Positions 14,801 through 59,400 of a stretch of DNA of 64,000 nt are shown piece by piece (within the stretch, counting starts at the first letter, position 1; each line of letters opens with the position of its first letter). The notes under the pieces are model-generated. The model searched no databases. It was not told the DNA's origin and saw only the letters and a list, made by a program, of their open reading frames with translations. Where the stretch lies: assembly GCF_964204865.1 (NCBI RefSeq), contig NC_135259.1, forward strand, positions 7,636,974 through 7,700,973, in the 5' to 3' direction. The position numbers were made by a program, and so were the translations under genes. The DNA is from Styela clava (Eukaryota; Chordata; Ascidiacea; Stolidobranchia; Styelidae).

Positions 14801-17800
14801 CTTTATCAGGGTCTAGGGTAGTTTAGTATCACAAGTACTCCTAGTGGGCTTTTCTTAACCTATTTTGCATATGTTATTCCTAACCTCCACTTGACTACGT
14901 CATCCAAACATTACGTCATTGCGACATCACAATCACGTCATATACCTTGCTAAAGTTTAGCTACGATTGCCCAGTCGCGGTCCTTATTTTGTCACTGTTA
15001 CGTCGTAGTGGAATAATTTTCAGATAACGTAGTCAGGTTGGGGTTAAAAATGAAATATGCAGAAATTGTTATGCCACGCTCACTAGAAGTTATTGTGGTA
15101 CGATACTACATAAGATCCCTTTATCCAATATGTATCATTCTGGTGAATGTTCTTAGCTGTTACTGCAATTGGAAGCTTTGCATAATGTCTTTGTTTTATT
15201 GTTTTTCATAGTGCTTGACCTTCCAATCCAAGATCAAGAAATTTTGAAGGCTATATGGAGGAAAAAGGGAATACTGCTGGAGGAGATTGAGGTTTGTTTA
15301 TTCTTGAATAATATTCGATATTTAAGTCAGGTCAGAAGATCTTCCATGTATCGGAGCATTCTTCTTAACCCACCCACTGGAGTGTATAACTTGAAATTAT
15401 AATGGAAATATACCAGACTGTTTGACATAATTTAGTGGCAGATTTTGAATGCCATCTGATCAAAAATTAGCTTAAGCTGTGCAAATTCTTGAAATTTCGC
15501 CGGATGAGAAGAGAACAGGCCGAAGTCACAATTTTGAGTTTTGAGAAAAACGCAAAAAACAATTTGGAATTTTTTTCATTTTTGAATTTCTAGATATTCA
15601 CACTTAGTAAAGTCCTGAGCTCTGGTTATTTTAATGTGGATGAGAATATCTTTGTAATCAATATTTTTGGCACTCCAGCTTCAATTCCCTCCTGCTTTTT
15701 TACCCCCATAAAGGATTTTGGCCCATTCTGTTCTCAACAACTTCTGAAATTTTTTATATGGGATGCAAGGTAAAACAAGGTGACTTAGGCCATAAGTTGC
15801 ACTGAACAAATTTTTAGGGATGTAAGTGTCGGACATTTCATTCCTGATGTTCATGCCCATCATATTGGAACTTAGGACTATCTTTTTTCAATATTTTGGG
15901 GTTTTGAGCCATGCTCTACGAGGGGTGGTCTTGAAATCCTGAGTTTCTCAATAATAAAAATTTCAGCTGGACTCAGGACCATTCTGTTCCCAAATATTTT
16001 AGTCTTAAGTCCAGCTAAAATTTTTATTATTGAGGAATTCAGGATTTCAAGACCACCACCTCGTAGAGCATGGCTCAAAACCCCAAAATATTGAAAAAAG
16101 TCAATTTTCCAAAAATGTGACTTAGGCCCCTTCTGTTCTCATCTGGCTATTTGACTTAACTCAGCTTGTTAAGTAATTCAACAGACTTTGAAATTTTTCT
16201 CATTGTTCCACCAAATATGATTTTGGGGTGTTCCATTAGATATGCCACCTCCCACAGATTATCATCAATTCCCTGGGGATCTCGAAGTTAACCAAATTTC
16301 TTTGCTAAAAGCATTAAAAAACCAATGAAATTAGGCGTAATAATTCAACTACAATATCCTAACATGAAATGAATACCTGAAAAGTAGATCTGATGATCAT
16401 TTGCTCAACAGTAACAATTTATGATACACAAACACAACATTGCCTAGTTCTGTTTTGCTTATTAATGTTTAACCCTCATATGTATATAGCTCTGTTATCT
16501 GTTGGTTCCCATATTTATAGATAGACATGTTATATTATATTCAGTTCACTTCCTTCTTGCAGTTTCGTAGTATATACATTTTTATGTCATTACAGAAATT
16601 AAAACGGGAACTGAAAGATGTTAATAAAGAAATTGAACAGGTAGAAGATTCTGAAGAGAGGTTAGTGGCTTGGATATTCTATGTTGTGTTATTTTTTTAG
16701 GGTAGTATTGAACGTTTGACAAATTTGACGTGGCTTTCTTGGACTTATATTGATTCATATCATTTAAAATATATAACATTTTAATCTGGTATGTGAATAT
16801 ACTGAATATTTCCCAATACCAGTATTTTAGAAATTTATTTTAATATAATTTCAGAAAATTATATATTCGAATGAAGTTGCTTAATTTGAGATATTGTATG
16901 TATCCTATGTATTTATTTGAATAATGCTAATTGCTAATACTTTAATTAATAACTGTCAAATTAGGAGTCATGTTGCTTGTATATTTGTCATGGAAATATT
17001 CCCAAATAGTATACTTTCATGCAAACCAAATTAAACTTGTAATGGGAGTAAAGTATTCCTAGATTTTATTTTTTTTAATTATGTTTCTTCATTAGAATCA
17101 ACAACTAGTTTGCTCCTATTTTCCCAATATTTAACAATATCTACCATTATCTATTTAACTTTAACTGAACTTGTACGGAAAACGAGGATAGACTAATTTG
17201 AAATGTATAAAATGTAAGTATTATCGATTACTTTAATAGTGTGATGAATAGAAATAATTTCCTATTTTTCTCAATTTCTAATTTATTTTTGTGTATTTCT
17301 TGTATTTTACAACAGCAAATCAAATTCCAGAGCAAAGCAGTTGGCCATAGGAAAAAAACGTTTTAACAGCGATCCTAAAAAGGTACAAATTTTTTCTTCC
17401 ATGTCTGAATTCGAAAAAAAAAATTAATTAAGGAAGTTCATCAAAAAATTAAGATTTAGTATGGCTACCAAATATAGGCTATGCCTATGCAAGCATTATC
17501 AAATACTGAGAATACTGATTCCAAAACCAATTTGCTGAATTCTTATTGTACACTTCAGATTCCCAAATTTGTTGCGCAATAGTTGTATGAAATGTAAAAA
17601 AATATTATCATATGCTGTTTTAAAATGCACTGAACATCTTGTTTTTTAAATTTGAATCACTCTAATCTTAATGATTTATGATGTGATTTGATAGCTGGCA
17701 TTCTTTGTCATTAAAAACGAAAGTAAACTCTGTTTGACTTCTGCTTTAAATGCTTCAATTATTCATTAAAACCAATGACCCTATCTATGCTTCATATAAT

Positions 17801-20800
17801 TATGATGTCATAATGCTTATTCACATGTATTCAATTTAAAATTATGACATGGTATATAGTGATCCACATACATAATAAAAAATTAATAATAGTGACTTTA
17901 TCATTACACATGATGACAGTGTGGAATTCTTGGTAGTTGTCACTTTTCTTGAAACTATTTTAACATGTGCGCATCAAGTATGGGCCAATAGTGAATGCGA
18001 TTCGCATCCATTCTCCATGATCGGACTTTCTCTCTAGTTTAATAAATTTATATAGTTCGGTATAATCATCTTAGTCATATCCAGTCAGTGTATTGGTCAT
18101 TAGTTAAAATATTTCAGGATTTATGATTGAAGGTTGCAACTTGCAATGGAGTATAGTTTTCATGCCATAAGTATTGACTATTTTAGTGTTTTGGTGTTTA
18201 AAATTAGAGTTTGAATTCAACTATAAATCATACTCATGCTATAATAAGTATTGGAAGGCGGTAAATATTGTTGGGTTTGTAGTACAGTGTAGCCTACTTA
18301 CTGTGTACGATTATTCATACATTTATAACATATAAGGCATTTCTATTGTGTGTACTGTGTATACATTGCGAATCATAGGTTTGGGAATAATTTAGCAATT
18401 GATGTTGTTTAAGGAGTCAGTGACATGTGGGACAATATAAACTATTATTATCTCCGTTGTATGCCCAGCTCATCTACCAATCTTGTTACAATTTTTTAAA
18501 AATTTATCATGTTTTCCTTCTTATTCAGGGTATGGAATATCTAATAGATAACGATATAGTCACACATGATGAAAAGAGCATTGCAGAATTTTTATATAAG
18601 GGAGAAGGTTTAAACAAAACCGCAATTGGTGATTATCTCGGAGAAAAGTAAGATCTTAATATGTGTAATTGTACCTATAACATTAAGTGTTAGAAACTTC
18701 CCTAGTATTGTACATCTAGTTATCATTTGTGAACAAAACTATATAGTACGCTGACAGGATTTTTTAGGCCTATTCACTTTGACTAGCCTAATTCCGAAAT
18801 ATGTTATTAAGCTGTTGGACATTTTAAACATGGAATTATAACATGGTATTTTTTTATTTGGAACAAAAAATGTTACTTTTTTGCAGGGATGAATTTCACC
18901 TTAAAGTTTTGAATGAATTTGTTAATCTACACAAGTTTTCAGGTCTTGGATTAGACAAAGCTCTCAGGTAGAATAGATTTTGTTTATTAATATTTTATCA
19001 GTGTTTTATTGATTGTCATTCTATCAGATGCATTTATTTTTCAGAAATTGCATGTATTGTGTTACAGAAATGAATAGATCACAATGCATTTGTGATTGTT
19101 TGCTGAATTTAGTCATTTGGTAGTGGTTTAAAACTTTAGTTAGTGTCTGAAATTTCTTATATTTTATCAAAAGTATCTGCCAATCAATGTGAATTTAAGT
19201 TTAGTTTTTTTACAATATAACATGAAACAGCATATCTTTTCACGAAAAACTCCATAAACCTAAAAAAAAAGAAATTAAGTGACTTCTTCATTAATTCAAA
19301 GATGTGCTAGAATGCTGACTTTATTTTATTACTGCAGGGATTTTCTATGGAACTTCCGATTACCGGGTGAAGCACAAAAAATCGATAGAATGATGGAAGC
19401 CTTTGCCAGTCGGTATTGTTCTTGTAATCCCGGTGTTTTTCTCAACACAGGCAAGTTTATACGTCTTACTTTTCTGCTATTGCTAACCAATCTGCCACTG
19501 CCTAAATAAGCATTTTTTAATATTACAGCATGATTTATTTAAGGCGCCCCCCACGAGAACTCAAGCATTTAAGATTATACACAAATAGGCTATAGGTTAC
19601 ATCAGTATTTTTGGTTTTCTTCTCATATGAGAATTATTTTTATATTTTATTCAATATTTAAGTTACTGACAAATTTTGATGCATCAAAAGATAGAAATTT
19701 TTTATTTTTTTAAAAATTAACCAAAAGGTGAAATTGGGAAATATTTTTTAATTTTGTATTTTAAAAATTTCCGTAAAAATAAATTTTTTGGAATATATTT
19801 GGAATAGGTATGCGGTTTAAACTAAATTTTACGGTAATGGTTTTCAAAATATTTTCAGATACTTGTTATGTTTTATCATTTGCAATCATCATGCTCAATA
19901 CATCACTACACAATCCGAGCGTAAAGGAAAAACCAACAGTGGACAGATTTATATCCATGAATAGAGGAATAAATGATGGGAAAGATCTTCCAGATGAATT
20001 ACTAATAGTAAGTTTTTTGAGCAAACTGCAGAATCATGAATCTAGTTTTCTATAGTGTTGGCTACTACTCCATTGGGCACGAGTAGGATCAAGGAGATCA
20101 TCATTAAAAATCTAGAAATGAATTTTCAAACTTAATTATTAATCTAATCCTAAATGAAGGTCCATCATTACTCTTTATCAACGTTTGATGTAAATATTGC
20201 TATAGATGTCATGCCAGGGTCACCATGGTGATTTAGACTTTAATTTTTACGATAGAATTTCATCCATTAACTCGAAGACCTAATTATCATGTTTTCGTTA
20301 TTCTTTACACAAGAACCAAGTTTTTAAAAAAGCGATGTAGAAACTAGAAATGTTACATTACCCATACTAAGTCATAAATAAGAATGGAAATTGTTTGATT
20401 TATCTGTTGCATTATTATTGAGTTGGCCAGTCCAGACTGTTTAATATATATTTGGGAAGTTCGTTATTTTATTGTGTGATTTGCTTGAACATAAAGATGT
20501 ATCTGTGAATGATGCTTTTTTTTAATAGTATTTTGATAAACTGTGCTTCTGTAGAATTATGTATCACTGGTAGTCAGAGCCACAACCATTTTATTTTTAT
20601 TTTCTATCACTTTTATTTTGAGTGACTGGCACAGTTATAGAAGCCCCAATTTTGGAATTAGCAATTAGCAAATTGGAAATCTTGATTTATCGTACTACTA
20701 TTATTTCTACTTATTCCTTGAATACTGTGATTTGATTCCCCCTGAAAATTACAAAAATACAATTTTCAATAAAAGTATGTACGGACAAAAATCTTTAATA

Positions 20801-23800
20801 ATTACACCAATTCTTGAGAATGTGTTCATTTCAGATTGATTCTATAAATGGAAATTTCTTTTCATGAATGTGGAATATTTCAATTACATCATTCTTTCTT
20901 GGACTTTTGATCGGCAGGCATTTAGAATGTCATTTCATTTTTGATTTCGTGATATCTCGCAAATTAATTTTGCCATATTTGGGATAATATGCAAATCAAA
21001 CTTTTGTTATTTATTTAATTGCAACTATACATTACGTTATCTTTGTAAGTCATTGTGAAAATTTAGAAGGAACCTTGTTAGTATTGTTACATAAAATATA
21101 CCAAATTTAGTTACATGTTACTTCAATGTATATTCCATTAAATTCTATATCAAATTTTTCATGATTTTTTGAATTGCAATCAAATCTTTCATGTATTATA
21201 TTATGCTTGTTTATAGTAAATTTCTTCAAAGCAAGTAGCATATTTAATTATTACTATTCTTCTGTACCCAAACCTACATTTCTTTTACCTGTAAAAAAAA
21301 TTATGTAGTATTCAAGTATTATCAAGTATTCATTAATATTTTTGTCGCCAATGTAAAAAGAATCGGAATGTAGTAATCTGAACATTGCACATCATTTGAA
21401 TAGCAAGTAACCTCTTCTATCTATGACAATATTTTTGTCTGGTATGCATGAGTATTACTTAGATGTGTAAAGCAGTCAAAAATTGAAATTGAGTTTACAA
21501 TTTTTTTAAACGGCTAGAAAACACAGGAATGTAGAATCAAACATTTTCATGGAGAAACTTCAATTTTTCATGCAGATTTATCGCTTAATTGAACAATTAA
21601 ATAATGGAGGTGAAGAAATTTTGTTGCGATGTTTATCATTGATAGCTGTCTCATTGGTCTTTTTTATATTTTCAGAATTTGTTTGACAGCATCAAAAAAG
21701 AACCTTTTAAAATACCAGAGGATGATGATGATGACCTCACAGCTACCTTTTTCAATCCAGATAAAGAAGGATGGCTTCTAAAACAAGGTATGTTTTTTCA
21801 TCTTCATCACAAATTTTCATATGTGGTCAGTAGAAAAACTTCAATTCTGTTTATATCTCTTGCTTGAACAGCTTAAATGGCAGTTATACATAAATAGTTG
21901 CATAAACTCAGTACTGGCCTAAATCTCAAACTTATTCACTGGTCTTAATTTTGATGACACCGTCGATACTAAACACTGCATCCTTATTATTAACCTTGAT
22001 AACACCACTGCCCACTAATAATGACTGCATCCTTTTATGATTGATAAAATAACTTTATTTTAAGATCTCTAGTCCTCACTTCTTAACAGAATATCGATAG
22101 AATTTTTAGTCTTACTTTTCTGGTTTGCTAATTTTATATGAAGAAGTGGAAAAACGTTCATAAAGGCATAATTACAATTCAATTTTTTATTTCCTTTTCG
22201 AAAGCACCCAAAATATTACAATTAGACTTCCATCTGTTTCTTCCAACTTATTACTGATTTTAGCAATGTTACAGAAGTTTATTTATTCCGATATCAGATT
22301 GTTGGAAAATGCAACAGTGCTATGATATTATCCTAAAAAGGCAGAGCGCTCTAATATGCAAAATATGAAAATCTGAATTTTCAAGTCTCAGCGTACCCTC
22401 TTCGTTGTTTCAGTGTAAATAAAAGCATAACATTTAGTTTTATTTTACTTCAGAATATTTCAACAAACAGTTTAAAATTTTTAAATTCTTTAACATACCG
22501 GTAATACCAATGTCATATTTTGTATTAATCACATATCAATGTTAGATCTTCATTGTTGCTTATAATAAAATATGTGGATGCATTTTATTTATTCAAATTA
22601 TAAAACCCTAGTTTACACTGTATATATTTTATGTTTATATAATTCATTGATAATACAAAAACAAACATGGTTGCAACTCATGCCATGACTATGCAATAAT
22701 ACCACTAATGATATATTTTTGTTATTGAAATATACTACACCCACTATAATAGTATGCATTCACCTTGTAACGTAACATGAATGGTTTAATATTATTTAAT
22801 TTAACCTTCAAAATATTTGATGTTTAAAGTTGCCATTTAGAATAATATATTTACAAAAATCCCTTCTTTTTGTCTCCGATAACATCTCACAGGCTAGAGG
22901 CTGGTTTAATCAAAATGGCCTCACTCTGTTGAGTTTGCATGCTAGTCAGATTTCTGGTTCTGTCATTAGCTTATACGATATATGGCCTAAGCTTGGACAC
23001 CTAAACTTGACTAGTTTGCGAGCTATTTTAAATCAGTCGGATTCAGCGATTCCACTGTTGCATTGTTTTCCACACTATTAATTCTTCATTAGTCTTAGTG
23101 GCTCTAGCATTGTCTCCCGTAAATTTCCTCAGAGATCAATCTCTCAATTTCTGAGTGAGTGCGCATGGCGATACTCAGAGGAAGATGAAGATCCTCAACC
23201 CAGCTACCGCTCATACTCTAAATATTAATTTCAAATTCTGTTTAAGCCAGTACTACCAGTTTCTTTATGCATTTCTAACAAAATGCTTACATAACTGTTA
23301 TTATTATTATTAACAATTCTTTTTTCTTTTTTTTTCGCTCTAACCTCTCGCTGGCATCTGACATTAGGAGGTATGTTAATAATGTAGTTCATAGTTGCAG
23401 CCTGGGAATGTTTTATTTTTCATTTGGAGCATCTTGCTCATGGATCATAGTTCGGTTTGGAAGATTTTTTCTGTTCCTATTTTATTTTCAACTGAGTTAA
23501 TTTGTTTAGTAAAGCTTCTGATTAATTTATAGCCTATTGTTCTAGTTTTTTTTTTCAGATAAAGGGAATATATTTAGTTTTCTGAAAATTATCATGCATT
23601 AGGAATAGTAGTTATTTGGTCATGCTTGACTTTGTATTGCCCATTTATCAGTTACAAAATATTGATGAATTCCGTTTATACTTTCTTTGTAATATTATCG
23701 GTATTGAACATTAGATATTCTAAAATTTGATTAAATAGATGATGTTATTTTTATTCAGAAACTCTATTTTTTAAATATTCTCCAAGTTCATCCCAATCTG

Positions 23801-26800
23801 GCCATATTTTTTTGTAGTATTTTTATATTTATTTAATAATCATCATTTAGAACTTCATTTTTACTTTGTGAAATTTGCCCAAAAAATTTTTGGATCTTGT
23901 TTGCCAATTAATTATGTTTTCTAACTTCAAGATTGGAATGTGTATTTATTTCAAATAAATGAATTCAGTGTCTAGATTGGAATCTTGCCTTTCATTTCGT
24001 GCCAAAGTATGAAAAACTTTTCGTTATGTTCTTTATTTATCGATATTTCTATATTTAAATATCATGTTTTTTGACGTCATGCTGAATGTCTCATGTCTTG
24101 CATGATTTTTCTAAATTCTAATATTCATGCATGCATGCAAACACCTATGTAGCAAATAGCAATGCATTCCAGTAGTGTGTTTTTCATTTTGCAGTAACAT
24201 TTGAGAATATTTTTATTACCAATATTACACTACAAATACTCTATCGAGATTTTGTCAGTTTGTAATAGTACATCCATGCCTTGGGATTATTTTTGATATT
24301 CTTTATTGATGGTATTCTGTTTATAACGCTGTTTATTAACTTGTAGTAATACTGGTGCTTCTTGAAAACTCCTTAAAATGTCTCGTATCTTACATTATGT
24401 TATAGTTCCTTAGATAGCAAAGATCATCTGCTTTTAAAAATAATTATTTCTTTTCGAAACTCGTAAATCTCATTCGTGATATTGGGGTTTTAGTTTCAAC
24501 TAATCTTTAATCTCATTGCAATAAATGAACTTGACTATATATAGGCTATATACTGCATGATATTCGCATTCAAACCATTGTTATGCAGCAATAGGACTAA
24601 GCTAATTCTTTCTGAATAATCCTTTTCTAAGTTGCTAATCACAAATTCATTTTCAATTTTTTTTTAGTAAATTTTACCATTTTTGATTATTTTTGAAATT
24701 GCAAATCATTGTTTTGTAATCTAAGTCATTTTCCTTTGTATAGATCAAAATGTCTTGTTTCTGTTTTGTAACTATTTTGAATTTTTTTCTAATTTACAAT
24801 TTTAATATCTGCAATGTGGAAACTCTTGAACGATAATAACAATATATATTATTGATAATTTGATCATAATTCACAATATTCCATAATTTCCATTGTCCAA
24901 ATTTACTAATCATATAATGAGACCAATTATGTGACCAAAATTTTTCAAAACGAAATCTGCAAAAGTCACGTAGTCTACTTACTTTAACTAACGTCATATC
25001 AAATATTTTTTAATGTATAATGTTTTTCACTTTAGGTGGACGATACAAAACATGGAAAAAAAGGTGGTTTCTTTTGACAGATAATTGTTTCTATTATTTT
25101 GAATTACCTCAGGTAAATTTCAATTTTATGAAATGTTATTAACTTATTATTAACAGTGATGGCCGAAACTGAATTTTTTACTATTCCGAATACATTGTAG
25201 AATAATATTTTCGAATATGGAACACATTCCAGATTATGGGCAAGTTCATGTGGAAAATTAGATAAATCACTATATCGCCGGATGAGGACAGAAGGGGCCT
25301 AAGTCACATTTTTGCAAAATTCGCTTTTTCCAATATTTTGGGGTTTTGAGCCATGCTCTACAAGGTGGTGGTCTTGAAATCCTGAATTTCTCAATAATAA
25401 AAATTTTAGCTGGACTTAGGACTGTAGAAGTTAAGAACAAAATGGGCCTAAGTCCAGCTAAAATTTTTAATATTATGAAATTCAGAATTTCAAGACCACC
25501 TTGTAGAGCATGGCTCAAAACCCCAAAATACTGAAAAAAGATAGTCCCAAGTTCCAATATGATGGGCATGAACATCAGGAATGGAATGTCCGAAACGTAC
25601 ATCCCTAAAAATTTTCTTCAGTGCAACTTAGGCCTAAGTCACCTTGTTTTACCTTGCATCCCATACAAAAAAATTCAGAAGTTGTTGAGAACAGAATGGG
25701 CCAAAGTCCATTATGGGGTTAAAAAAGCAGGGAGGAATTGAAGCTAAAGTGCCAAGATATTACAAAGATATTCACATCCACATTAAAATAACCAGAGCTC
25801 AGGTCTTTACTAAGCGGGAATATCTAGAATTCCAAATTGTTTTTTTGCGTTTTTCTCAAAACTCAAAATTGTGACTTAGGCCTGTTCTGTTCTCATCCAG
25901 CGATACCTTAATGTTGATCACATCTAAAACGACATAATATAATAAGGGTCATTGTTTGTTATCAATTAAGATATCAGACTTTGATCCGCTTGTCTGATGG
26001 CTTAAAATCTCTGATTTTTGATAAAAAATATTCTGACTAATTTCCAAATTCGAAATTTTTTATATCCAATATAATGAAATATGAATGTATTTGAATATTT
26101 GATTCGTTTTGAACATTCCTGGTCATTTATATAAGACCAAGTCCTATATATTTTTCCCTTTATGGCAATACTGAAAATCGAACCTGCTATCTACATGGCA
26201 AACAGATGGATTCCAAGATTTCTCAAAATTTGATGATCATAGAATTACATTATAATTTAACAGGAAACATGAAGCTTGTGTTTTCTGTGGAAAATATGGA
26301 ATAGGCTGAATACCTCTGGCACCTCTGTGTCTTATTTTAAAGAATTCAAAACAGTCCGTGCTTTAATACTACTAATTATAATATTTTTTCATTTAACAGG
26401 ATCGTGAACCAAAAGGAATAATTCCACTAGAAAATTTACAAATTAGAGAAGTTGGTGATCAGAAAAAACCTGTGAGTTCGTATTTTTTAACCATAATATC
26501 AAATATATAGAATGTGCAGAGAAAAAGGTTGTTAAGATAGCTCAGTCATATGGCATACCACAGAGATTTGAGTTTTGCACTAGTTTTAATAATTGTGTTT
26601 CGAATCAAAAGTATGAAAAAGTACAATAGATATGGTAGGCTACTTAGTGTGAAATATCTATACTCTTTGCAAACCCCAAAATTCATTGCACACCCCCCTG
26701 CGGGTCGTGACCCCAGTTTAGGAAGCCCCGATGTAAACAATCTTAGGTCTGTGAGGAGACCAGCCCGAAGTGCGATGGTAAGCATATTCCTTGCGCTTAG

Positions 26801-28659
26801 TACGATAGGACAACCACTCGTACAACAGCCATAATTAGAAATTTCCAATCTATTTCATATAAAAAATCATTTGTCTACTAACAGTAAGGTTGGGTAACCA
26901 CATTGACTAGATTATGTGAGTTTGTGGTAATACATGCTATTAATGCATGTTCCATAATAATTACTTTGCTCTGTGTGTTATTGACTATTTGTTTAGGTAA
27001 ATTATTGATGTTTAGTATGCCTGCATCCATAACATTGATCCATAAATTAGGCTTCTGATTATGTAGCCTACTACCTTAAAATTGCTTGTGCAATGTAATC
27101 TTAATACCAAACATCTTATAAAAATAGTTATACAATGTGTGAATCACTATTACATCAGGCTCGCTTGCAACATGTTATTGATCAAGCCCAATATTGAATA
27201 GCCTATTAGCTATTATTATGTCGTTTCATAATTACACTAAAAACTAATAATGCATACTTTTTTTACAGCATTGCTTTGAACTTTATCTACCAGAACAAGG
27301 ACCAACACAAATGATCAAAGCCGCTAAAACTGATTCTGAAGGAAGACTTATACAAGGTAATTATTAATGATATGTTTTTCATTCTCTCAATATGTGGCAC
27401 TTTTATTTCATATTAAATGAGAAACATTCCCTTGTTGAAAAATTGGATGGAATAACACTCAACCAGGGCTACAGAACTGGTTTGAAATGTTGATGTCTCC
27501 AATGCCGCTGTATAGTTAAACTGCAGCTCCAGATCTTCATTTTTTGGTCTCCTGAAGTACGCGCTCACAAGTACTTCTAGTGGGCATAGCATAGTGATTT
27601 TTGCATATTATATTCCTAATTCCCACCTGATTACGTCGTCCAAAACTTATGTCACTGCAACAGAAATAGCTTGCTCGATTTCGGATGATCATCTGCTCTT
27701 ACTTTGACGACCATCGGTATACTTTGGAGGGCCTTAGTACGCCACTGTTTGTCGCACTGACGTAATTTTCGGATGACATAGATAGGTGGGGGTTAGGAAT
27801 GATATATACAAACATTGTTCAGTCCAGGACACCAGTTTCACAGCCACTATGGTTTTTGAGTAAAAAACTATGATATAAGGGATTCAAATTTTGAAATTTA
27901 ACTTTTAAGATAATATCAGAAATTCAACTTAAAATGAAATTATAAGCTAAAAAGTATAAATTATATTATTTGTATTATGTATCAGAAATTATACATGTGA
28001 AAAAATAAAATAATTTTGTATTTTTATTTTGTAATTCAGGCAAACACACAACTTACAGAATGTCAGCTTCATCAGCGGAAACAAAGGAGGCATGGATAGC
28101 TTGTATAAGGTTGTTAAATTTGGTTTTATTTGCGTTACTCTGTGAAATTTTGACTCTTGAGTCTTGACTTTTTTTGTAATACTTACCATGCTTCATTTAA
28201 TGTAGAAATTTAGATTGTAATGAATTTTTGAGAAAATTATCAGAATGATAAGACATCTTATCTCCTGCTTCTAATTTGTTGGCTTCTATCAATAAACACA
28301 ACAACTAAAATAACTCATAGCAAACCATTGAAACAAAACTAAGGTTTGAAAAGCAAGGTACCATGGAATGTTAAGAACAGTATTTCTGAGGGGCCAAAAG
28401 TCTGAGAACCGTTGATTTAAAAATAAATAACAAAGACGAATTTTAAAATGCCCACTATTCAGATATGAACCTTTCCCTCGCTCTATGAGAGACATAAATA
28501 GTATTATCACATTGTTATTTTTCATACCCTTATGTACAAATGAAGCTTGCATACTCATACCATCTTGTTTTTTATTGCAGGAAAAGTGTGAGCAAAGATC
28601 CTTATTATGACATGATTGCTGCACGGAAGAAAAAAGCAGGATTGTCAAAATCAAATTGA
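11781..28659 (+). CDS. CYTH: Cytohesin (Sec7-PH Arf guanine-nucleotide exchange factor)
   Basis: Exons: 11781-11805 (tentative first), 15212-15291, 16596-16660, 17316-17382, 18529-18647, 18887-18967, 19338-19450, 19859-20007, 21676-21787, optional 23368-23370, 25036-25112, 26400-26471, 27269-27356, 28040-28109 and 28581-28659. All phases join, giving 398 residues (399 with the microexon), the length of mammalian cytohesins. Order: coiled coil (about 10-60), Sec7 (about 73-203) with F-R-L-P-G-E and catalytic Glu157, a linker, PH domain (about 263-381) with [12 protein letters not shown] for phosphoinositide binding, then a basic tail (R-K-K-K). Cytohesins load GTP onto Arf1/Arf6 at the plasma membrane after PH-domain recruitment. 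The intron after 19450 has a GC donor. Two inverted copies of one transposon lie in introns at 15498 and 25276. Confidence 0.96.
11965..13430. mobile_element. DNA element with 29-bp perfect inverted termini, in cytohesin intron 1
   Basis: Both ends read inward GGTACCGTAAAAGCGCCTAA followed by CTTCGGACA, a perfect 29-bp inverted repeat. A second copy of the CTAACTTCGGACA-like motif lies inside each end (about 11997 and 13211). The body is 1.47 kb with no long frame. The outer GGTACC merges with flanking GGTACC repeats, so the exact terminus and target duplication cannot be set. Superfamily unknown. Confidence 0.7.
13603..14388. mobile_element. TIR element TAGGGTGG, 786 bp, in cytohesin intron 1
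   Basis: The left end TAGGGTGGCTTAGCCACTTT and the right end read inward, TAGGGTGGTGTAGCCAGTCT, are imperfect inverted repeats of about 25 bp. Internal sequence matches 35590-36132 in inverted orientation, so it is a repeated family. No clear target duplication. Confidence 0.65.
14391..14700 (+). repeat. Partial MITE of the TACTTCTAGT family
   Basis: Starts TACTTCTAGT and shares the block TTTTGCATATGTCAATCCTA and CCCACCTGACT with the elements at 14836 and 27572. The inverted right end was not found. Confidence 0.5.
14836..15092. mobile_element. MITE with about 70-bp imperfect inverted repeats
   Basis: Left arm TACTCCTAGTGGGC through TTGACTACGTCATCC; the right arm, read inward, runs AACTTCTAGTGAGC through CTGACTACGTTATC. 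Total about 257 bp, mostly stem, lying in cytohesin intron 1. Related copies lie at 14391 and 27572. Confidence 0.7.
15498..16148 (+). mobile_element. TIR element P, copy 1, with internal long hairpin (cytohesin intron 2)
   Basis: Left end CGCCGGATGAGAAGAGAACA; the right end, read inward, starts AGCCAGATGAGAACAGAAG. Flanks are ATTT on both sides. It matches 25276-25902 in opposite orientation. The interior holds a near-palindrome: 15882-15985 pairs with 16005-16101, with arms of about 95 bases that include GAGCCATGCTCTACGAG and its complement. Open frames here are products of the palindrome, not genes. Confidence 0.8.
23368..23370 (+). other. CYTH: 3-nt alternative microexon GAG of cytohesin (diglycine/triglycine switch)
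   Basis: A strong acceptor (long pyrimidine tract, CTAAC branch-like motif near 23340, ending CATTAG) is followed by GAG and a GTATGT donor. The upstream exon ends in codon base 1 (G at 21787) and the downstream exon starts GT-GGA. Skipping gives Gly-Gly; inclusion gives GGA-GGT-GGA, Gly-Gly-Gly. Vertebrate cytohesin genes use a GAG microexon at exactly this place in the PH domain, and the two forms differ in phosphoinositide preference (diglycine favours PIP3). Confidence 0.85.
25276..25902 (-). mobile_element. TIR element P, copy 2, inverted (intron between PH-domain exons)
   Basis: Ends CGCCGGATGAG (left) and CGCTGGATGAG read inward from the right. Flanks ATAT and ATAC are compatible with a 4-bp target duplication but are weak evidence. 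It aligns with the reverse complement of 15498-16148 and has the same internal hairpin (about 25328-25540). Confidence 0.8.
26670..26745 (-). mobile_element. hAT terminal fragment in cytohesin intron
   Basis: The sequence GGGTCGTGACCCCAGTTTAGGAAGCCCC resembles the GTGGGTCGCGACCC...TTTGGGAACCGCTG end of the element at 61709. Only one end is present. Confidence 0.45.
27572..27820. mobile_element. MITE of the TACTTCTAGT family in cytohesin intron
   Basis: Left arm GTACTTCTAGTGGGCATAGC through CACCTGATTACGTCGTCC; the right arm ends GGTGGGGGTTAGGAATGATATA. Similar to 14836-15092. The outer right terminus is degraded. Confidence 0.6.
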
Positions 28660-41111: not shown

Positions 41112-44100
41112 ATGACTGAGACAAATTCTCAGTGGAGATGGGTCGTCTTAGTTGCATGCTTTATATCAACTGTAGGAAACTCAGTGTTTTTCTACGCATT
41201 CGGCACATTTGTTCTGTATTGGATTGACGCTTTTTCTGCAACAACGGCTTCTGTAGCAGCCGTCGCTAGTTCTGGATCAGCAATAGCGGCAATGGCATGT
41301 GAGGATGGATTATTTCTGTTTTGATTGATTTTTTAGTATTCCTGTAGTGTGTGCCAGGTTAGGGTTAGACCATAATGGACCTTTCCCCGACCTTTGACCC
41401 CCGAAAAATTCTTCCTATACTTTACCATTGCAAAATTTTTGGGGATATTTTAATAGTGCTTTTGCGAATTGGCGCCTGCAAAATGGGGTATGTGTTTCAA
41501 ACCATCATTTTGATTCATCGCTTACAGTAATCTGTTTTTTAAAACTACCGGTAAAGAATTTTAGCCTAGTCTACCACAGCTATTTCTACACTAAATTTTT
41601 ATTACTGCAATTAACTTAAAACCCCTAGAAAGACAGAGTGATCATTGGATTATCTGATTTATATTTAAGTTTCCGAAACACAACTGAAAACTAACAAATA
41701 GAGTTCAAAAACGCGAAACATTGTTACGTCACTTTTTGTATCTTGCTGATTGGCCAATGTCACGAAGTAAACAAGGAAGTCGATGCTCGGGGAAAGGTCC
41801 ATTTTATTCCGATTTTCCTCATTTTGGTTCTATTACGAATTCGGGAACTGTCTGTGTTAGCCAAGTGAATATACCCCTTGTCCATAGTTTTGATTACCGT
41901 TACACAACTTGATGTAAACCAGGCAAACAAAATTAGTTACCTCCATATTGGTGCACACACTTCTAGAGCGCCGATTTTTTTTACTACGGAGTAGGTACTC
42001 TAAAGAAGTAGACTTGTTCATGCCATAATGCATGACTGACTCATTAGCATTATCATGAATAATTATATATATCAAACGTCTTGGCATATTCTCGGCCCCT
42101 TTGTCATTAAACTGCATTATAACGTACATCTGGAGTAGGCTAATAGCTCTCTTTGCCGCGTTAAATTTGTAGATGGATTACTAAATTCATTGGCTTAACA
42201 ATTGATCTTCAGTGAATCCCTGGTTTCATTTTCCATAAACAACCATGTACATGGAATGCCGAAATGGTCGAACAAGCTGTTTCCCGACTCACGCTGGTAG
42301 CGAAAAAAATCAAGTTTACATCTTTCCAATCTAAATAACAAGACTATAACGTTTTAGCTCCCAATTTAAATAATAATGACTTATCATTTTTAATCCTGGA
42401 GAGCCAGATAGGCTACAAATAACGTTCTGTAATTTGATTCCTACGAAAGTCTTTGTTCGAATTTTGGGAATTGGGGTTGGTGCTATACCGTGTGTTGATT
42501 TTCAGGTCCTTTCGGTTGCTTTATTGTTGATAAATGGGGATACAGATGGACTCATGTTCTCGGGGGAATCATGATGATGATGTCATTTGCAGCTTCTTCC
42601 TTAGCCCAAACATTATCTCAACTGTTTTTTACGTACAGTGCCTTAGGAGGTAAGGTTCTAACAATATTATTCCTTTCATATTTCAATGTACAAATAACAA
42701 GAGATTAGGGCTCAAATATATGGACACGAAGATTAAAACGAACGAAGTAGTATCAAATATTTTACAGTAAAGGTAGTTTGACCACCAGATCACTGAGATG
42801 TGATGACGGAATCAATGCACAATTTTAATAACTTGATCACACAAATCTTCGAAGTGAAAAACGAATCTCATAGAACCTTCAGATATTTTACAGATGCCCT
42901 AGTCTCGTAGGTAATAAGAAACAACAGAAACATTCTTTTTTCAGGTTTGGGATGTTGCTTCTGCATGGTTTCATACGTAAATGCTGTGAGTGAGCATTTT
43001 CATGATCAAAGACCACTTGCTTTTGCATTGGTAACGAGTGCCTATGGACTTGGAAGCTTTATATTCCCCCTGTATTTTGAAATGCTCATCGCAGAATACA
43101 ATTGGAGGGGGGCCATGTTAATCACTTCAGGTTTCTTTGGTAACATGATTGCATGTGGCTTATTACTCTATCCTGTTAGAGCGTCACCTCCCTTTCCAAT
43201 TCTCCGGTGTTGGAAGCTGAAAAGCAAAAATTCAAATACACAAAGAAAAAGTCTGGCACCCCTAATTTCGGAACATGGAACGGACTGTTATGAAGCCAAA
43301 ATAACGTCGTCGGAAGACAACATTTCTTTTGGCGGAAATGTACAACCAAATGAAAAACTTGTCATAACTTCGAAGGACGAAAACGATAATTTTAATTTTG
43401 ACAAGGCAAGTTCAGAAAAATTATCTGATGACGAATGTTATGAACTCGGCAAAAACGAATTAACATTTTTTCAAATTGCAAAGATATTATTCAGCGGCTG
43501 TACATTTTATATAGTCATTGCACATAATACTATTTTATACATGGGATATTTCATTGTACTCGGCTTGACAACAGCAAGAGCATCTTACGATTTAAACTTC
43601 ACTGAGGAACAAGGTGAGGAGAGATTACATTTTAAATTGTCTTGTAATTTTGCAATTAAATAAGACACATTTAACAACGTAGTGAACTTATCGTACTGAT
43701 TGTATAATAACGTCGATACTTGTATTTTTCAGCTGCACAGGTAGTTTCAACGTTTGGCATCAATGCAATATTTCGGATATTGCTAGGTCTTCTATCAAAA
43801 TGGAAGTTCGTAAAATCGTATTATGTGTATTTTTTATGCTTCACAATTGCTGGAGTCCTAACGTTACTTTCTGTGTTTGCCAAATCGTTCGCTATGCAAA
43901 TTGCTTACGGTGTCTGTTGTGGTGCTCTCTTTGCCGCCATAACACATTATCAAGTGCTTGTACATGAAATTTATGGTAAGTATCAAACATTTAAATTGCC
44001 CTTCAGAAAATAATTTATAATAATTTGAATGACTTATACTACTTTACTAGAGCAAGATACGATTTTTATAGATAAGCAATTGCTTTGTCTTTGTAGGACA

Positions 44101-44601
44101 GGACTGATTTGAATTTCAAATTTTATTGTAGTTTTCGTCATTTCATTTTAACAATATAATAACAATTCCACTTTTCATAATTTTGACAGCAATCACAACA
44201 AATATATTTGAATTTTGTATTCAGTTGATTCACCCGTTTTCGCAAAACCATTTCGATTATACGTGCTTGGTATGTTTGTGGGTTAACATGTTCGTGTTTT
44301 TTTTATTACGCCATTTCCTTATGCCGAAACAGTAATCTGCAACACATTTTTAAATTTATTGTTCTCATTTTACCATTCATTTCACACAGGTGCCAAATTC
44401 TTCAATGTTGCATTCGGTTTTCTTGAATTGATGCATGGGGTCGGTATTGTAACCGGACCAATAATTGGAGGAATTCTCATCGATGTGACAGGATCCAGTG
44501 TCTGGACTTTTATATTTGCCGGATCAACAATACTCTTGGCTACATTTCTTTTGCCCATTGGTTTTGCTTTAACTGGACAAATTAAAAAATTGAATTTTTA
44601 A
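41112..44601 (+). CDS. Monocarboxylate-transporter-like MFS protein 1 (SLC16 family)
   Basis: Exons 41112-41298, 42506-42649, 42945-43613, 43733-43975 and 44390-44601; every intron is phase 1 with GT-AG ends. Product 484 residues. TM1 opens W-R-W-V-V; the G-Y-R-W-T-H-V loop and TM4-5 segment H-F-H-D-Q-R-P-L-A-F stand for the family signature between TM4 and TM5; a hydrophilic loop of about 100 residues separates the two six-helix halves; the last half has F-G-F-L-E-L-M-H-G and G-P-I-I-G-G. This is the MCT/SLC16 fold: plasma-membrane transport of monocarboxylates or related solutes. TM8 reads N344-A-I-F-R348; Arg348 aligns with the conserved arginine of MCT1, but the paired aspartate is Asn. 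Substrate not predictable. Intron 1 carries a MITE and a dispersed repeat. Confidence 0.93.
41374..41806. mobile_element. MITE in intron 1 of transporter 1
   Basis: ATAATGGACCTTTCCCCGA at the left pairs with TCGGGGAAAGGTCCATTTTAT at the right, about 17 bp of inverted repeat; 433 bp in all, with no coding capacity. Confidence 0.7.
41812..41974 (+). repeat. Dispersed repeat, copy 2
   Basis: Matches 5590-5750 in the same orientation and directly follows the MITE at 41374-41806. Confidence 0.75.
42700..42760 (+). repeat. Fragment of interspersed repeat R in intron 2 of transporter 1
   Basis: AACAAGAGATTAGGGCTCAA followed by ATATATGGACACGAAG matches the start of the R copies at 35250-38092. Confidence 0.55.
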
Positions 44602-48799: not shown

Positions 48800-51700
48800 A
48801 ACAAACTAATCAAGCGGGAATTGGTTACCCGAATTAGTGAGACTTTCTGCGAGCATTCTACGAAATATCAAATGATTTAATTGGTTGACTGTAAGTGAAA
48901 ATCGAAATGAAAAAAAACGCCACAGAATCAAATTCATAACAAAAACAATAAAAATATCCGGGTTGCGAGTGATAGGTCTGTCGCGCATTAATTGATTCAT
49001 TTTTGGAAGACATTGTTTAACTCATGGGTTCTCAAACTGAAGAGAAATTTTGAAGTAAAGAAGAACATGATCAAACGTGATTGTTGATCACAGAGCAAAT
49101 TGCAATCTACTCTATTATGCTCTTACTTTAAAGAGATAACCTAGCACCATTTTCTGTATTTCACTTAGATCACACTGGAATAGACTATCTGTCCACAGTT
49201 GAGGGGATGAATTTTAATCAGAAAATTTCACGAAGTGTGAAAGAGAAAATAAAGTTTGAAAACCACAGAACTCTACAATTGTTGAATTCAAATTATTTGT
49301 CTGTGTAGCTTAAAAAGAATCGTTATTTTCAGGAGTAGTTTAGTTATTTCAATTGGTATTCGAATGTAAAACAAGGCAAAAATAAAAGTCACAGTTTGCG
49401 TGCTGTGATACTCAAGAGTAACAGCATTAGCATTTGTATTTTGAGTAATACACATTGTGGTTTGCCTACCCGTGACAGGGAGATATATATATATATATGG
49501 GTGGTTCTAGTTGTTCCCGGCCTCGTTCTGATAAAGTCGACAAAATTTAAGATTAGAGCAAAACTTGTTTTATTTCAGTCACTTTTTAAAAATCCTTATG
49601 TAAATGATCATAGTAAAATGATTAGACGAATTCCATGATCATTCACACATTTGACATTACATTCGTGTTTGACATTTCCTGAACATCTCTACACTTCTGT
49701 TAGATTCGAGGTTCAATGAATTGTGCCAACTAAAAATCCAACAGTTTGATTTGTCCAGTTAACCATAATCCAATGGGCATAATAAATGATCCAACAAGTA
49801 AGGATAATCCGGCAAAAATGAAAGTCGATACGCTGGAACCTGTTACATCAAAGAGTATTCCTCCAATGATTGTACCCGTGATAACACCGATTCCATGCAT
49901 AACTTCAAGATAGCCGAACGCAATATTAAAAAATTCAGATCCTGTCGAGAAAATATAGTTTTGAAGTATAAAATATAAGTATAAACTCTAATAGGATTAT
50001 CAATTACTGAACTATAAAACAATTTTATAATGTCTTTTTCCCAAAACATTTCATAACATCTTAATCGCAGTTTCCAACAAATTGAGAATGTGATATACCC
50101 TAGTGATATAACAATGTGATATGATTTGTGTGTTGAATACATAAGCGAGAGACAGCGTGTTAAACGTCGAAATCAAGCGATAATTGCTCTGTAAATGAAA
50201 ATGAATACATTTTTGCTCTCACTCCCAACTAGTTTTTAACTTACCAAAAATTTCATACACCACAACTGGATAGTGAGTCAATCCTGCAAGCATAGCACCC
50301 CAACAGAGACCGTAAACAATTTGCATGGTGAATGATTTGGCAAATACGGAAAGTAAAGTTAAAACTCCAGCAAGGCTGAAGCATGAGAAATACACATTGT
50401 ATGTTTTAACAACCTTCCATCTCGATAGTAGACCATACAATATACGAAATATTGCGTTGATTCCAAACGTTGAAACTATTTGAGCAGCTGAAAATATAAA
50501 TAATGTGCAGAATTCGACATTCACAACATGATTTCAAACAAAAAGAGAATTATGCGAAATAATGAAAAGTTCTTAGAGTGATCTATTGTAATTCTGAAAT
50601 CAAACAAGGTATGCAATTTCGGGGGAATTAGATCACCGTCTCATGTATTTACATATAAGCAAAATTGATTTCCCAACAACCCATTTTACAACAAATAAAA
50701 AAAAATAAATATTAACATTGATTGAAACTCACCTTGCTCTTCTGTTAGATTTAAATCGTACGATGCTCTTGCTGTTGTCAAACTGAGAACAATGAAAATG
50801 CCCATATACAATACTGTATTATGGATAACCACTAGATAAAACGACCAACTGCTTGCCAATATTTTAGTTACTTGAAAATATGATAATTTTTTATCGACGT
50901 GTGTCAAGTCACTACAATCGTTTTTATTATTCTTTATTGCCTGTGATTGGTCATTGTTGAGGATATCGTCGGTATGTTTACGTCTTGTGGCATCTATCGA
51001 TGTTGACCTGCTTTCGTTGGCAAGAAGGATACTTGTTATTGATGTTTGTAGGCCGTCCTTATAAATATTGCTGCCTTCTAAGATCAGTGATGACGGACTC
51101 GTTCTTGTATCAATTTGCTTTTGCTTCCTACATGAGAAAGAAGGTAGTGGTGGGGATGCATCAACGGGATAGAAGAGTAGACCACTAACAATCATGTTGC
51201 CGAAGAAACCTGAAGTTATTAACATAACCCCTCTCCACGAATATGGTTCAATTAGTGCTTCAAAATACAATGGAAATACAAAGCTTGCTATTCCAAATGC
51301 GCTTGATATCAAGCCAAATGCAAGAGCTTTTTCGTCAAGGAAATGTTCAATAACAGCGTTGATATATGAAGTAAGACAGAAACAAAATCCCAGACCTTAA
51401 AATGAACAATATTGATTCACGCCACAGTGTTAGCTTAATGGAAGGTAATAAGATAATGTTGAATATTATAATCGACTTTGAAAGAAGTGATTCATCGAAA
51501 CATTGCCATTTGCGAGATGTAACGCTTCATGCAAAACTTACTGCCAAATCAAGTCTGGATCAATAACGAGTTCAACATTCAAACACAATTATTGAAATCT
51601 ATTGATATGCGATTTATGTCAGCTTTAATATATTTGAGCTGCTTTAAATTAAACGTATTATTGCAAAATAAACAAATATATATATATTGAATTCTCACCT

Positions 51701-53660
51701 CCTAAAATACTATACGTAAAAAATAATTGAGATAATGTTTGTGCAAACGAGGAAGTTGCAAATGCCGTCATCATCATGATTCCTCCAATGACATGAGTCC
51801 ATCTATATCCCAATTTTTCAACACAAAAACAACCGAAGGGACCTTTGAATTTAAAATAATTGAAATTTTGATATTGATGAGTGCGACTGCTAGATTCTTC
51901 ACTAAATAAATTCCACAATTAAGCTGGGTTACTGGTAGTTTTTCCGCTTACATTCTCATACTATCAACATATAAAGCTGTGACATAATGTACATTGCGCA
52001 GTGTATATGCCGTTAACAAGACCAACAAGTTGAATTAATAAAGTTCCGTTCATTTGCCACGTGTAATTAAATATCAGCTCTAATACTATGGCTGGATATT
52101 ACTTCACATAGTTCATAGTGTTTTTTTGAGTAGAGTCCAAGTTTAGTGATTATAAAGCTAGAAATCCGGAGATCTTACAGAACGTTTTTGAATTACGGCC
52201 GGATGACACAACTACTCGAGCTAATATTTACCTTATCCGTCAAGTCGTTCTTCATGACACAAAAGCATGACACGTTGTATTACTAATCTGTATTAAATTC
52301 AAGTTCAAGTATTTCAAATGTTTTACAAATACGGAAAATAGGTTTGAATATACCTCTAATCAAGTCATGCCTGGAATGGGTTACGCACAGCATGGTTATC
52401 TGTTTTGAACACAATCAATTAAATATTTATTCGGTGGGGGAAGTGAATATATCCAACCATACACACTTGCAATTGAAGCTATCGCTGGTCCCGCACTTGA
52501 AACGGCCGCTACAGAAGCAGTTGTTGCTGAAAATTCGTCTATCCAATACAATACAAATGTTCCAAAGGCATAGTAAAATATTGAAATACATATCGCTGAT
52601 ACGAAGCAAGCGATTAAAACTACCCATCGCCATCTTGAACCGGAATCAGTCATATAAAAATTTTGTAACCTGACATAATAACCTGAAATATAACTATGTT
52701 ACTTCATATTAGTTTGTATCGGTGGTTTTGCAGTATTTTTATCTTATCAACAGAGAACTGAATTTTTGTATTGAACTCAAACAATATCAGCACAAAATTA
52801 TAAAAATAAATGATATTTCCGACCTGGACGGAAAATATCACGGAACAAGGAAATGCGTCTTCCGTGCACAGTTTATGATTTACCTCTGGCCTTCACTTTT
52901 CTTAAATAATTCTGAAATAATTTTTGACCGTCGATGTTTTTCCACCTACTGTCTTGGGTCGAAAACATTACTTACTTGTTAGCGTTGCATTCTGTTCATG
53001 TGGGCTTTCCCCTTCGGCTGACCAAATTTATACACTAAACAGCTCAGAGCTGAATCTGTAACTTGATTTGTGAGTATACATTGAACCTATAAGAGCTTCG
53101 AAAGCATATAAAAATGTGACCTAATGATTCAATTCTAGCAGAGAAGATGTTTAAAATGTTAATTTTAAAGTATAATTTAAAATAATCGCTTCTTAGTAAA
53201 TAACTAAATACAAAATCAACCTGTACTTCCATTTATAATACACAGCACTCACTTATACCCTCTCTAATGTAAGATTTCGATCATCTACACAATGTTCTGC
53301 CAGTACTAATGCAAATGTTTACTATTTCCCCATTTGTCAATGCAAACATCAAGAGCTTTATATTTACACAGCATCCTTGGTCTCGTTAGGTACGAATCAT
53401 TCCAAGTCAAGTTAGTTTAAAAATTAATTTACCTGAATTGGCAAAAGAAAAAAAAAAGCAATATTTCCATTTCACATTTTGTAAGATCGGACTGAAATAT
53501 ACAAACACATTGCATTGTATTTATACAATGTACTTTATTTTTATACAACCAATTATACATTGTACGATAATAAATCAGTTGCATTTAATTAAAACCTTTT
53601 TTTTCAGAAAAACAAATAAAAATATTCACACAGTAAAATCTTCTAATAGCCTCCGAACGA
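48800..53660 (-). repeat. Segmental duplication, unit A (contains transporter 2)
   Basis: Aligns with 54180-60990 in the same orientation. Matching flanks include CTATCCACAGTTGAGGGGAT-type sequence at 49190 and 54885, TATTGAACTCAAACAATAT at 52770 and 59910, and AACAAATAAAAATATTCACA at 53611 and 60960. The duplicated block covers the gene plus about 1 kb on each side. Confidence 0.85.
49730..52653 (-). CDS. Monocarboxylate-transporter-like MFS protein 2 (SLC16 family)
   Basis: Minus-strand exons 52653-52467, 51842-51699, 51395-50733, 50487-50245 and 49941-49730, all split in phase 1; 482 residues. Exon lengths equal those of gene 1 (187, 144, 243 and 212) apart from exon 3 (663), which encodes the variable cytoplasmic loop. 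Same MCT layout: W-R-W-V-V in TM1, twelve hydrophobic segments, a hydrophilic loop of about 100 residues. TM8 reads N342-A-I-F-R346, again without the aspartate. In the last exon the usual G-P before I-I-G-G-I-L is G-T, and a Trp present in copies 1 and 3 (S-V-W-T-F) is Ser, so copy 2 shows some drift, though its frame is intact. Closest relative is gene 3, its tandem neighbour. Confidence 0.93.
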
Positions 53661-56428: not shown

Positions 56429-59400
56429 TTAAAAATTCAAAAGTTTTATTTGTCCTGTTAACCATAATCCAATGGGCAGAATAAATGATCCAACGAGTAA
56501 GGATGATCCGGCAAAAATAAAAGTCCATACGCTGGAACCTGTTACATCAAAGAGTATTCCTCCAATAATTGGACCCGTGACAGCACCAATTCCATGCATA
56601 ACTTCCAGATAGCCGTACGCAATATTAAAAAAATCAGATCCTGTCGAGAAAATATAGTTGTGAATTATGAAATAAAAGTATAAATTCTAATATTATTATC
56701 AATTACTGAGATATATAATTGTTTGGTGTAATTTTCCTAAAACATTTCATAACGGCTCCAACGCGGCTTACAACAGATTGAGAATGTGATATACCTTAAT
56801 GATAACTATTAAGTTATGATTTGTGTGTTGACAAAAGAGTATTGTATTCACAAAAGAGGCAGCGTGTTAAACGTTAAAATCAAGCGCAGATCGCTCTGTA
56901 AGGTAAAATGAATATCTTTTTCGCTTCACTTCCAAATAGTTTTTAACTTACCAAAAATTTCATACACCACAACTGGATAGTGAGTCAATCCTGCAAGCAT
57001 AGCACCCCAGCAGAGGCCGTAAACAATTTGCATGGGGAATGATTTGGCAAATACGGAAAGTAAAGTTAAAACTCCAGCAAAGCTGAAGCATGAGAAATAC
57101 ACATTGTATGTTTTAACAACCTTCCATCTCGATAGTAGACCATACAATATACGAAATATTGCGCTGATTCCAAACGTTGAAACTATCTGAGCAGCTGAAA
57201 ATATAAATTAATCGGCATAATTCGACATTCACAACATGATTTCAAACGGGAAAAAAGTAGGTGAAATAATGAAAAGTTTTCGGAGTGATACGTTGTAATT
57301 CAGAAATGAAACAATTTATCCAATTATGATAAATTAGATGCATAAGTCTCATATATTTACATATAAGCAAACGTGATTTCCCAACAACCCAGCTGAAAAC
57401 AAATAAGAAAAGAAAATGATAATATTGGTTCAACCTCACCTTGCTCTTCTGTTAGATTTAAATCGTACGATGCCCTGGCTGTTGTCAAACTGAGAACGAC
57501 AAAAATGCCCACATACAAAAGCGTATTATGAATAACCATCAAATAAAACGACCAGCTGCATATCAATATCTTAGTTACGTGATAGTATGATAATTTTTCA
57601 TCTACGTTTGTTAAGTCACAACAATTCTTTTTATTATCTTGTATTGCCTGTGACTGGTCAGCGTTGAAGATACCGTTCGTGTGTTTATGGCTCATGGCAT
57701 CTATTGGTATGGTTGACCTGCTTTCGTTGGCAAGAAGGATACTTGTTATCGATGTTTGTTGGCCGTCCTTATAAGTATTGTTGTCTTCTAAGATCAGCGA
57801 TGACGGAGTCGTTATTGTATCAATTTGCTTTTGCTTCCTACACGAGAAAGAAGGTAGTGATGGATATGCATCAACGGGATAGAGGAGTAGACCACCTACA
57901 ATCATGTTGCCGAAGAAACCTGAAGTTATTAACATAACCCCTCTCCAAGAATATTGTCCAATTAGTGCTTCAAAATACAATGGAAATACAAAGCTTGCTA
58001 TTCCAAAGGCACTCGTTATTAAGCCAAATCCAAGAGCTTTTTGGTCACGGAAATGATCAACAACAGCGTTGATATATGAAGTAATACAGAAGCAACACCC
58101 CAGTCCTAAAAAGAATGATATTGAATCACGTCACAATGTTTGTGTATTGGAAGAAAAAAGATAATGGTAATGAGACTAAATTTATTATTAATATATAGAT
58201 TTTGATAGTAGTTTTATTCAAAACGTTTCGATTCCTGAGATGTCATGCTTCACGCAAAAATAAAATTTTACATCTGACAATAACTTATCCCATGGAATCA
58301 GTTTTCGTTCCACATCAAAACACAAATATTCAAATCTATTAGTATGCATTTCATGTCTAGTTTAGTATATTTGATCGTTTTCATAATAAACAAATTACTG
58401 CAATACGAACGAATATATATTGGATTCTCACCTCCTAAAATGCTATACGTAAAAAACAATTGAGATAATGTTTGTGCAAACGAGGACGTTGTAAATGCTG
58501 TCATCATCAGAATTCCTCCAATGACATGAGTCCATCTATATCCCAATTTTTCAACACAAAAACAACCGACCGGACCTATGAATTTGAAATAATTAAAAAT
58601 TTTCTACTGATGAGTGCAGGTCGCTAGATTCTTCAATAAATTGAATTCTATAACTTAGCTCGGTTACTGGTAGTTTATCTACGTACATTCTCATACTATC
58701 AACAAGTACGTTGTGACATAAGATAAACCGAGTGGTGTATATGTTGTTAATAGAAAATGTACTAACAAGACCAATATTTTGAATTAATAAACCTTCGTTC
58801 ATTTGCCATGTGTAATTAAAAATCAGCTCTGGTCCGTAGCCGGTTATTGTACTTCAAATGGTTTATAGTGTTTTTTGAGTTGAGTCCAAGTTTAGTCAAT
58901 TTCAAGCTAGAAATCCACATATCATACAGAACGGTTGTGAACTACGGCCTGATGACACAATAACTACTCGAGCTCATGTTCACGGTATCCGTCAAGTCGT
59001 TTTTCATGACACAAAACATGCGGTGTTGTATTACAAATAGGATAGGATTTACATATTTATCCAGGCGGAGAGGAAAGCCGATAAGACGACTTAACCATAT
59101 GGCGAACGACGGCCTCTCGTCCAGTTACCATTCCATGTCGGGTATGGGATTAGTTAGTTATTTGTTTTTCATATATGGACTTGGTGGTGGAGGAAGCCGT
59201 AACCGACCAGCGGTTACGTGAACCACCCTACGGCGGCGAGGAGTCCAGCAATCCTCTCGCACATAACCATCCCTGCATGGGATTACCGCTTAGCACGATG
59301 AGCCGCACTGTATTAAATTCAATTTCAAACGTTTTTACAAATGAGAAAAATGGGTTTGAATAATATACCTCTAATCAAGTCACGTCTGGAGTGGGTTAGG

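Follow-up and report, generated by a model that had tools for sequence, protein, structure and literature searches.

The cytohesins 1-3 of mammals exist in two-glycine (2G) and three-glycine (3G) forms that differ by the triplet GAG (PMC9104363), an insertion that has been termed a single-glycine microexon (PMC10586773). With respect to exon 9.1 of CYTH2, the 2G form prefers PIP3 and the 3G form binds PI(4,5)P2 (PMC10505920), and the accessible text of three sources reports the shift from PIP3-selective to PIP2-binding behavior for mammalian proteins (PMC9104363, PMC10586773, PMC10505920). Steppke, an invertebrate cytohesin from Drosophila, has a diglycine in its PH domain and prefers PIP3; its PIP3 binding is weakened when a triglycine is engineered into it, and the accessible part of that source mentions no triglycine form that occurs naturally (PMC4640550). 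The conservation of neural microexons is reported to drop fast outside the vertebrates, even in amphioxus (PMC8797185). Two comparisons are available for short exons that have been retained. The Agrin Z microexons are common to Ciona and vertebrates, providing a tunicate-vertebrate precedent for shared short alternative exons (PMC12445529), and the 3-bp micro-exon 8 of Drosophila homothorax is a conserved three-base exon with isoform-specific roles, although it belongs to a different gene and its three bases are spliced as the start of a 48-bp exon (PMC7392893). Among the matches listed in the open-licence PMC literature there is no report of the GAG exon outside vertebrates.

The window considered here (the whole stretch of 64,000 nucleotides from Styela clava, whose numbering is used throughout) contains a cytohesin gene in which the triplet GAG at 23368..23370 (+) is very probably a real, conserved microexon. 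The word “conserved” refers to the same protein position, length and codon as in the published vertebrate insertion. Like the vertebrate CYTH1-3 exon, the triplet is 3 nt long, reads GAG, and would insert a glycine into the Gly-Gly of the PH β1/β2 loop while preserving the frame.

The cytohesin gene and the GAG triplet

The gene model (15212..28659, +) comprises 13 coding exons in a single open frame and encodes a Pfam Sec7 domain followed by a PH domain, the order that characterizes the cytohesin family. The exons, all on the + strand, are located at 15212-15291, 16596-16660, 17316-17382 and 18529-18647 (exons 1-4), 18887-18967, 19338-19450 and 19859-20007 (exons 5-7), 21676..21787 (exon 8), 25036..25112 (exon 9), and 26400-26471, 27269-27356, 28040-28109 and 28581-28659 (exons 10-13). 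Once joined, they are read as an open frame either with or without GAG, up to a stop codon at 28657-28659. Sec7 (E 3.2e-75) covers residues 54-235 of the model protein and PH (E 1.4e-23) residues 253-367. The PH part has 11 distinct PDB matches at E <= 1e-10, nine of them to cytohesin-3/GRP1, one to cytohesin 2 and one, the weakest, to PLEKHA6. The model begins at 15212 and lacks the start exon, which was not found; the N-terminus of the model, from which that first exon is absent, appears by eye to be a charged, heptad-like sequence.

One cytohesin gene was found in the 376.6-Mb genome. The search matched 12 places: seven correspond to exons of the 15212..28659 gene, and five are weak matches (36-54% identity, with E values of 4e-5 or weaker). 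The gene appears to be single-copy in Styela clava, whereas mammals have four cytohesin genes; this agrees with the proposal in the preliminary description that both forms would come from one gene.

Exon 8, where the PH domain starts, ends in phase 1 at ...LLKQ G| (AAACAAG, donor gtatgt), and exon 9, which continues the domain, begins with GTGGACG, that is, |GT GGA CGA. The phase-1 intron 8 between them (21788..25035, +; 3248 nt) exceeds the other 11 modelled introns in length, and GAG divides it into 1580 and 1665 nt. Read directly, the sequence around the triplet is ...TTAACAATTCTTTTTTCTTTTTTTTTCGCTCTAACCTCTCGCTGGCATCTGACATTAG|GAG|GTATGTTAAT, so that GAG lies between the AG of an acceptor TAG (23365..23367, +) and the GT of a donor GTATGT (23371..23376, +). 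The split glycine codon determines the outcome. If GAG is skipped, Q G|GT GGA gives Gly-Gly (KQGGRYK), and if it is included, G|GA G|GT GGA gives Gly-Gly-Gly (KQGGGRYK). The earlier reading of the triplet and its donor is thus borne out, as is its placement in the intron, phase and codon that turn Gly-Gly into Gly-Gly-Gly within the PH domain.

Structural matches agree with this placement. Of the five alignments displayed for the three-glycine peptide, those to the GGGR chains 1u27 (cytohesin 2) and 1u2b (cytohesin 3) need no gap, and the remaining three need a gap of one residue. When the glycine is added to the whole PH domain, the score rises from 190.6 to 197.5 bits for 1u2b and from 168.0 to 174.9 bits for 1u27, and it falls for the other eight cytohesin sequences (e.g., from 205.1 to 200.7 bits); the PDB holds solved structures for both the two-glycine and the three-glycine forms. 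Judging from the position in the protein, the intron position is presumably also the same as in the vertebrate genes.

The best explanation, in which we have good confidence, is that the 3-nt alternative exon of the vertebrate genes has its tunicate orthologue in GAG 23368-23370, which would act as a lipid switch through skipping or inclusion. Where the spliceosome skips GAG, exon 8 would be joined to exon 9 and the first PH loop would contain two glycines (QGGRYK); inclusion would yield a PH domain with three (QGGGRYK). If the mammalian proteins are a guide, PIP3 would be the preferred ligand of the two-glycine form, and the three-glycine form would accept PI(4,5)P2 as well. Hence, an animal that makes both forms, as we infer for this one, could use a single gene to place the Arf-activating Sec7 domain only at PI3-kinase-active sites or at the plasma membrane generally.

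Other features of the gene are of separate interest. Intron 6 begins with an apparent GC donor (ACAG|GCAAGT, 19451-19456). A repeat of ~650 bp is present in intron 1 (15497-16150) and, 88% identical and in the opposite orientation, in intron 9 (25274-25903); its center (15882-16100 and 25324-25540) is palindromic and resembles a foldback- or MITE-type element.

Splice signals and candidate regulators

Splice sites were scored with position matrices derived from the 12 donors and 13 acceptors of the cytohesin gene itself. The microexon donor reaches 9.7 bits with the full matrix and ranks first among the 150 GTs of the intron, the constitutive donors ranging from -0.7 to 9.2 bits in leave-one-out scoring. 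The acceptor has a mixed character. Its last 20 bases score 1.5 bits (24th of 119 AGs), towards the lower end of the 0.8 to 15.3 bits obtained for the constitutive acceptors by leave-one-out, while the pyrimidine content from -50 to -4 is 0.79, the highest of 117 AGs, compared with 0.51-0.72 at the 13 constitutive acceptors. An uninterrupted pyrimidine run of 20 nt (23317..23336, +) is found there; the longest runs at constitutive acceptors are of 5-11. The “strong acceptor” of the preliminary description consequently holds for the extended tract but not for the bases next to the splice site.

The AG-free zone upstream of the acceptor TAG measures 108 nt, compared with 25-75 at the 13 constitutive acceptors, and four other AGs in intron 8 have zones longer than 108 nt. 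Two YTRAY sites are present in the acceptor region. TTAAC at -58 (23310..23314, +) lies just 5' of the pyrimidine tract and is the candidate distal branch site, with CTAAC at -28 (23340..23344, +) as the alternative candidate. A distal tract and branch site would aid the recognition of a 3-base exon, and the distance of the tract may allow U2AF and U1 to fit on the two sides of such an exon.

This arrangement invites comparison with the neural microexons that depend on eMIC/Srrm proteins. In the fly, the acceptors of eMIC-dependent exons are reported to be weak, with long AG exclusion zones, long pyrimidine tracts and strong CUAAY sites, most of these features being found in mammals too, and with UGC motifs close by (PMC8797185). 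The GAG site likewise combines a long AG exclusion zone, a long pyrimidine tract and a CUAAY-type branch site with a weak AG region. Unlike the exons described there (PMC8797185), the tunicate triplet is without UGC near the acceptor: in the 100 nt upstream TGC occurs at just two positions, -84 and -100, leaving the nearest 83 nt free of it. The absence of this customary eMIC signal weighs against the microexon reading.

The usual microexon regulator seems to be present, since an SRRM_C (eMIC) domain (PF15230) is encoded at C19:12893204, with a modest score of 29.9 bits, just above the cut-off of 27 (30.9 on the open frame). The domain (L016:1456-3042, C19) seems to be split by an intron, perhaps continuing in a downstream frame. 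We take SARKRPIPY in that downstream frame to be a possible continuation of SRRM_C; the frame alone has no Pfam match.

Three TGCATG motifs, candidate Rbfox sites, are located 729-762 nt 3' of GAG (24099..24137, +; starts 24099, 24128 and 24132). Two more occur in intron 8, at 22936 and 24554. The five compare with 1.1 expected, a count made post hoc. To regard them as Rbfox sites is speculative, and the downstream ones are more than 700 nt away.

Alternative readings of the triplet

It is very likely, on the evidence of the DNA, that the GAG exon is real and used, and it is likely that it is alternatively spliced. An exon that is always included, with the three-glycine form as the only product, is an unlikely alternative that overlaps with the best explanation, so that the probabilities given to the readings do not sum to one. 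Constitutive use would suit flanking introns of ordinary size (1580 and 1665 nt) and a donor whose 9.7 bits exceed the leave-one-out scores of all 12 constitutive donors. Very short exons, however, are often skipped, possibly because of steric crowding (PMC4317164), the frame is kept when GAG is skipped, and the mammalian exon is alternative (PMC9104363).

It is decidedly unlikely that the triplet is an unused remnant of an ancestral microexon or a glycine exon gained independently at this position. In a relic the splice signals would be expected to decay, but no other site in the intron exceeds this one in donor score or pyrimidine content. Convergence could have produced an identical codon at an identical protein position, but it is the less economical account.

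Very unlikely, too, is a chance occurrence of TAGGAGGTATGT next to a pyrimidine run in an AT-rich 3.2-kb intron, never used in splicing. Loose patterns do arise readily, YAG-NNN-GTRNGT in 5.5% and the bare AGGAGGT in 2.4% of intron shuffles; the window shows no enrichment of the latter (5 found against 2.96 expected, with 17 of 100 shuffles reaching 5). Moreover, random sequence would be expected to yield an acceptor as weak as this one over its last 20 bases. The full pattern behaves differently. YAGGAGGTRNGT is found once in the 64-kb window on both strands, against 0.03 expected, and the single occurrence in intron 8 was reproduced in 0 of 4000 dinucleotide shuffles. Genome-wide there are 173 sites (93 + 80, both strands, 376.6 Mb), the reversed control being commoner (205 + 204), and this rate predicts 0.00075 sites on one strand of a 3248-nt intron. 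As the codon was set beforehand by the vertebrate exon, 0.00075 is the expectation for such an intron; together with the 0 of 4000 shuffles, it makes chance a poor explanation.

The remaining introns provide a further comparison. With 60 nt omitted at the start and 10 nt at the end of each, the 12 cytohesin introns contain 25 AG-NNN-GT arrangements, among which only the 23368 site reads GAG and only this site has a GTRNGT donor; its upstream pyrimidine content (0.79) is the highest of the 25, the next being 0.66. Under a chance origin it would be a coincidence that the one GAG sits in the one intron where Gly-Gly would be extended, and the donor rank of 1 in 150 and the pyrimidine rank of 1 in 117 would be further ones. 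In the summed acceptor and donor matrix score, the GAG site leads the six AG-NNN-GT of its intron, yet it comes only fourth among the 331 (169 + 162) on the two strands of the window. That three arrangements score higher favors chance to some extent. Two of them, at 51701 and 58434 (-), are by reading plain coding exon ends of MFS gene copies (...SILGG|gtgaga) that likewise read AG-GAG-GT. The third that outscores the cytohesin site in the summed splice score is a 3-nt arrangement at 4941 (+), TTTCTAG|AAA|GTAAGT.

The surroundings of the triplet are unique. The segment 23200-23560 matches itself alone in the genome, and the 150 nt on each side of GAG have no further match within the window. 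No relatives were found in viral contigs, nor among the 29 pattern matches in prokaryote genomes.

Finally, a recursive splice site, at which the AG of 23369-23370 abutting GTATGT would form a zero-length exon for two-step removal of the intron with no glycine added, is scarcely credible: AG|GTATGT is indeed shaped like a ratchet site and lies roughly halfway along the longest modelled intron, but GAG| scores -4.5 bits as an acceptor against 1.5 for TAG|, the TAG comes first 3' of the tract, and the intron is only 3.2 kb long. Recursive splice sites are known from introns much longer than that.

Ancestry of the exon and neighboring genes

The genome (376.6 Mb, 379 contigs) encodes a GH6 domain (PF01341) at C9:16179895, with a cellulose-synthase/GT2 open frame ~2 kb 5' of it on the same strand and, by eye, a membrane-like segment between the two. 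COX1 had no match in the assembly; in the ascidian mitochondrial code AGR specifies glycine. A CesA GH6 domain is reported for eight of eight tunicates and none of 35 other metazoans (PMC6523144), and this candidate fusion gene therefore identifies the animal as a tunicate.

Common descent of the tunicate and vertebrate GAG exons is highly probable, given what the two share at the level of codon and protein. An origin before the vertebrate duplication was already likely because the vertebrate paralogues share the GAG variant; with the tunicate gene, the minimum age probably goes back to the ancestor of tunicates and vertebrates, and the condition preceding the duplication becomes visible. The phase, the codon, the PH position, the tunicate marker and the presence of one cytohesin gene together make a pre-vertebrate origin the best reading, so that the earlier suggestion that the switch predates the vertebrates is upheld. 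Two published observations count against a shared microexon, namely the diglycine of Steppke (PMC4640550) and the reported rapid loss of neural microexon conservation outside vertebrates (PMC8797185). It remains fairly probable that the three-base exon, its codon, position and phase have been kept since before the split of tunicates and vertebrates, as a lipid-selectivity switch in a single tunicate gene.

If so, few exons whose homology can be demonstrated across so long an interval would be as small as this triplet, and its regulation would predate the vertebrate paralogues. Since neural microexon conservation is reported to fade outside vertebrates (PMC8797185), a shared 3-base exon would stand out clearly from that trend and would be a clean example of splice signals kept by selection for the sake of one residue. 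An animal with one cytohesin gene, and hence without paralogue redundancy, is suited to asking what the recruitment of an Arf activator by PIP3 only, as opposed to PIP3/PIP2, does. Gene-prediction programs easily miss 3-nt exons, and invertebrate cytohesins annotated as diglycine therefore merit a re-check.

Downstream (3') of the cytohesin gene, the window contains similar gene copies in both orientations, at 42911-44601 (+), 49843-52698 (-) and 57357-58603 (-). Three of the four scanned frames of these copies match MFS_1, and the copies are an apparent local duplication. Presumably they resemble monocarboxylate transporters.
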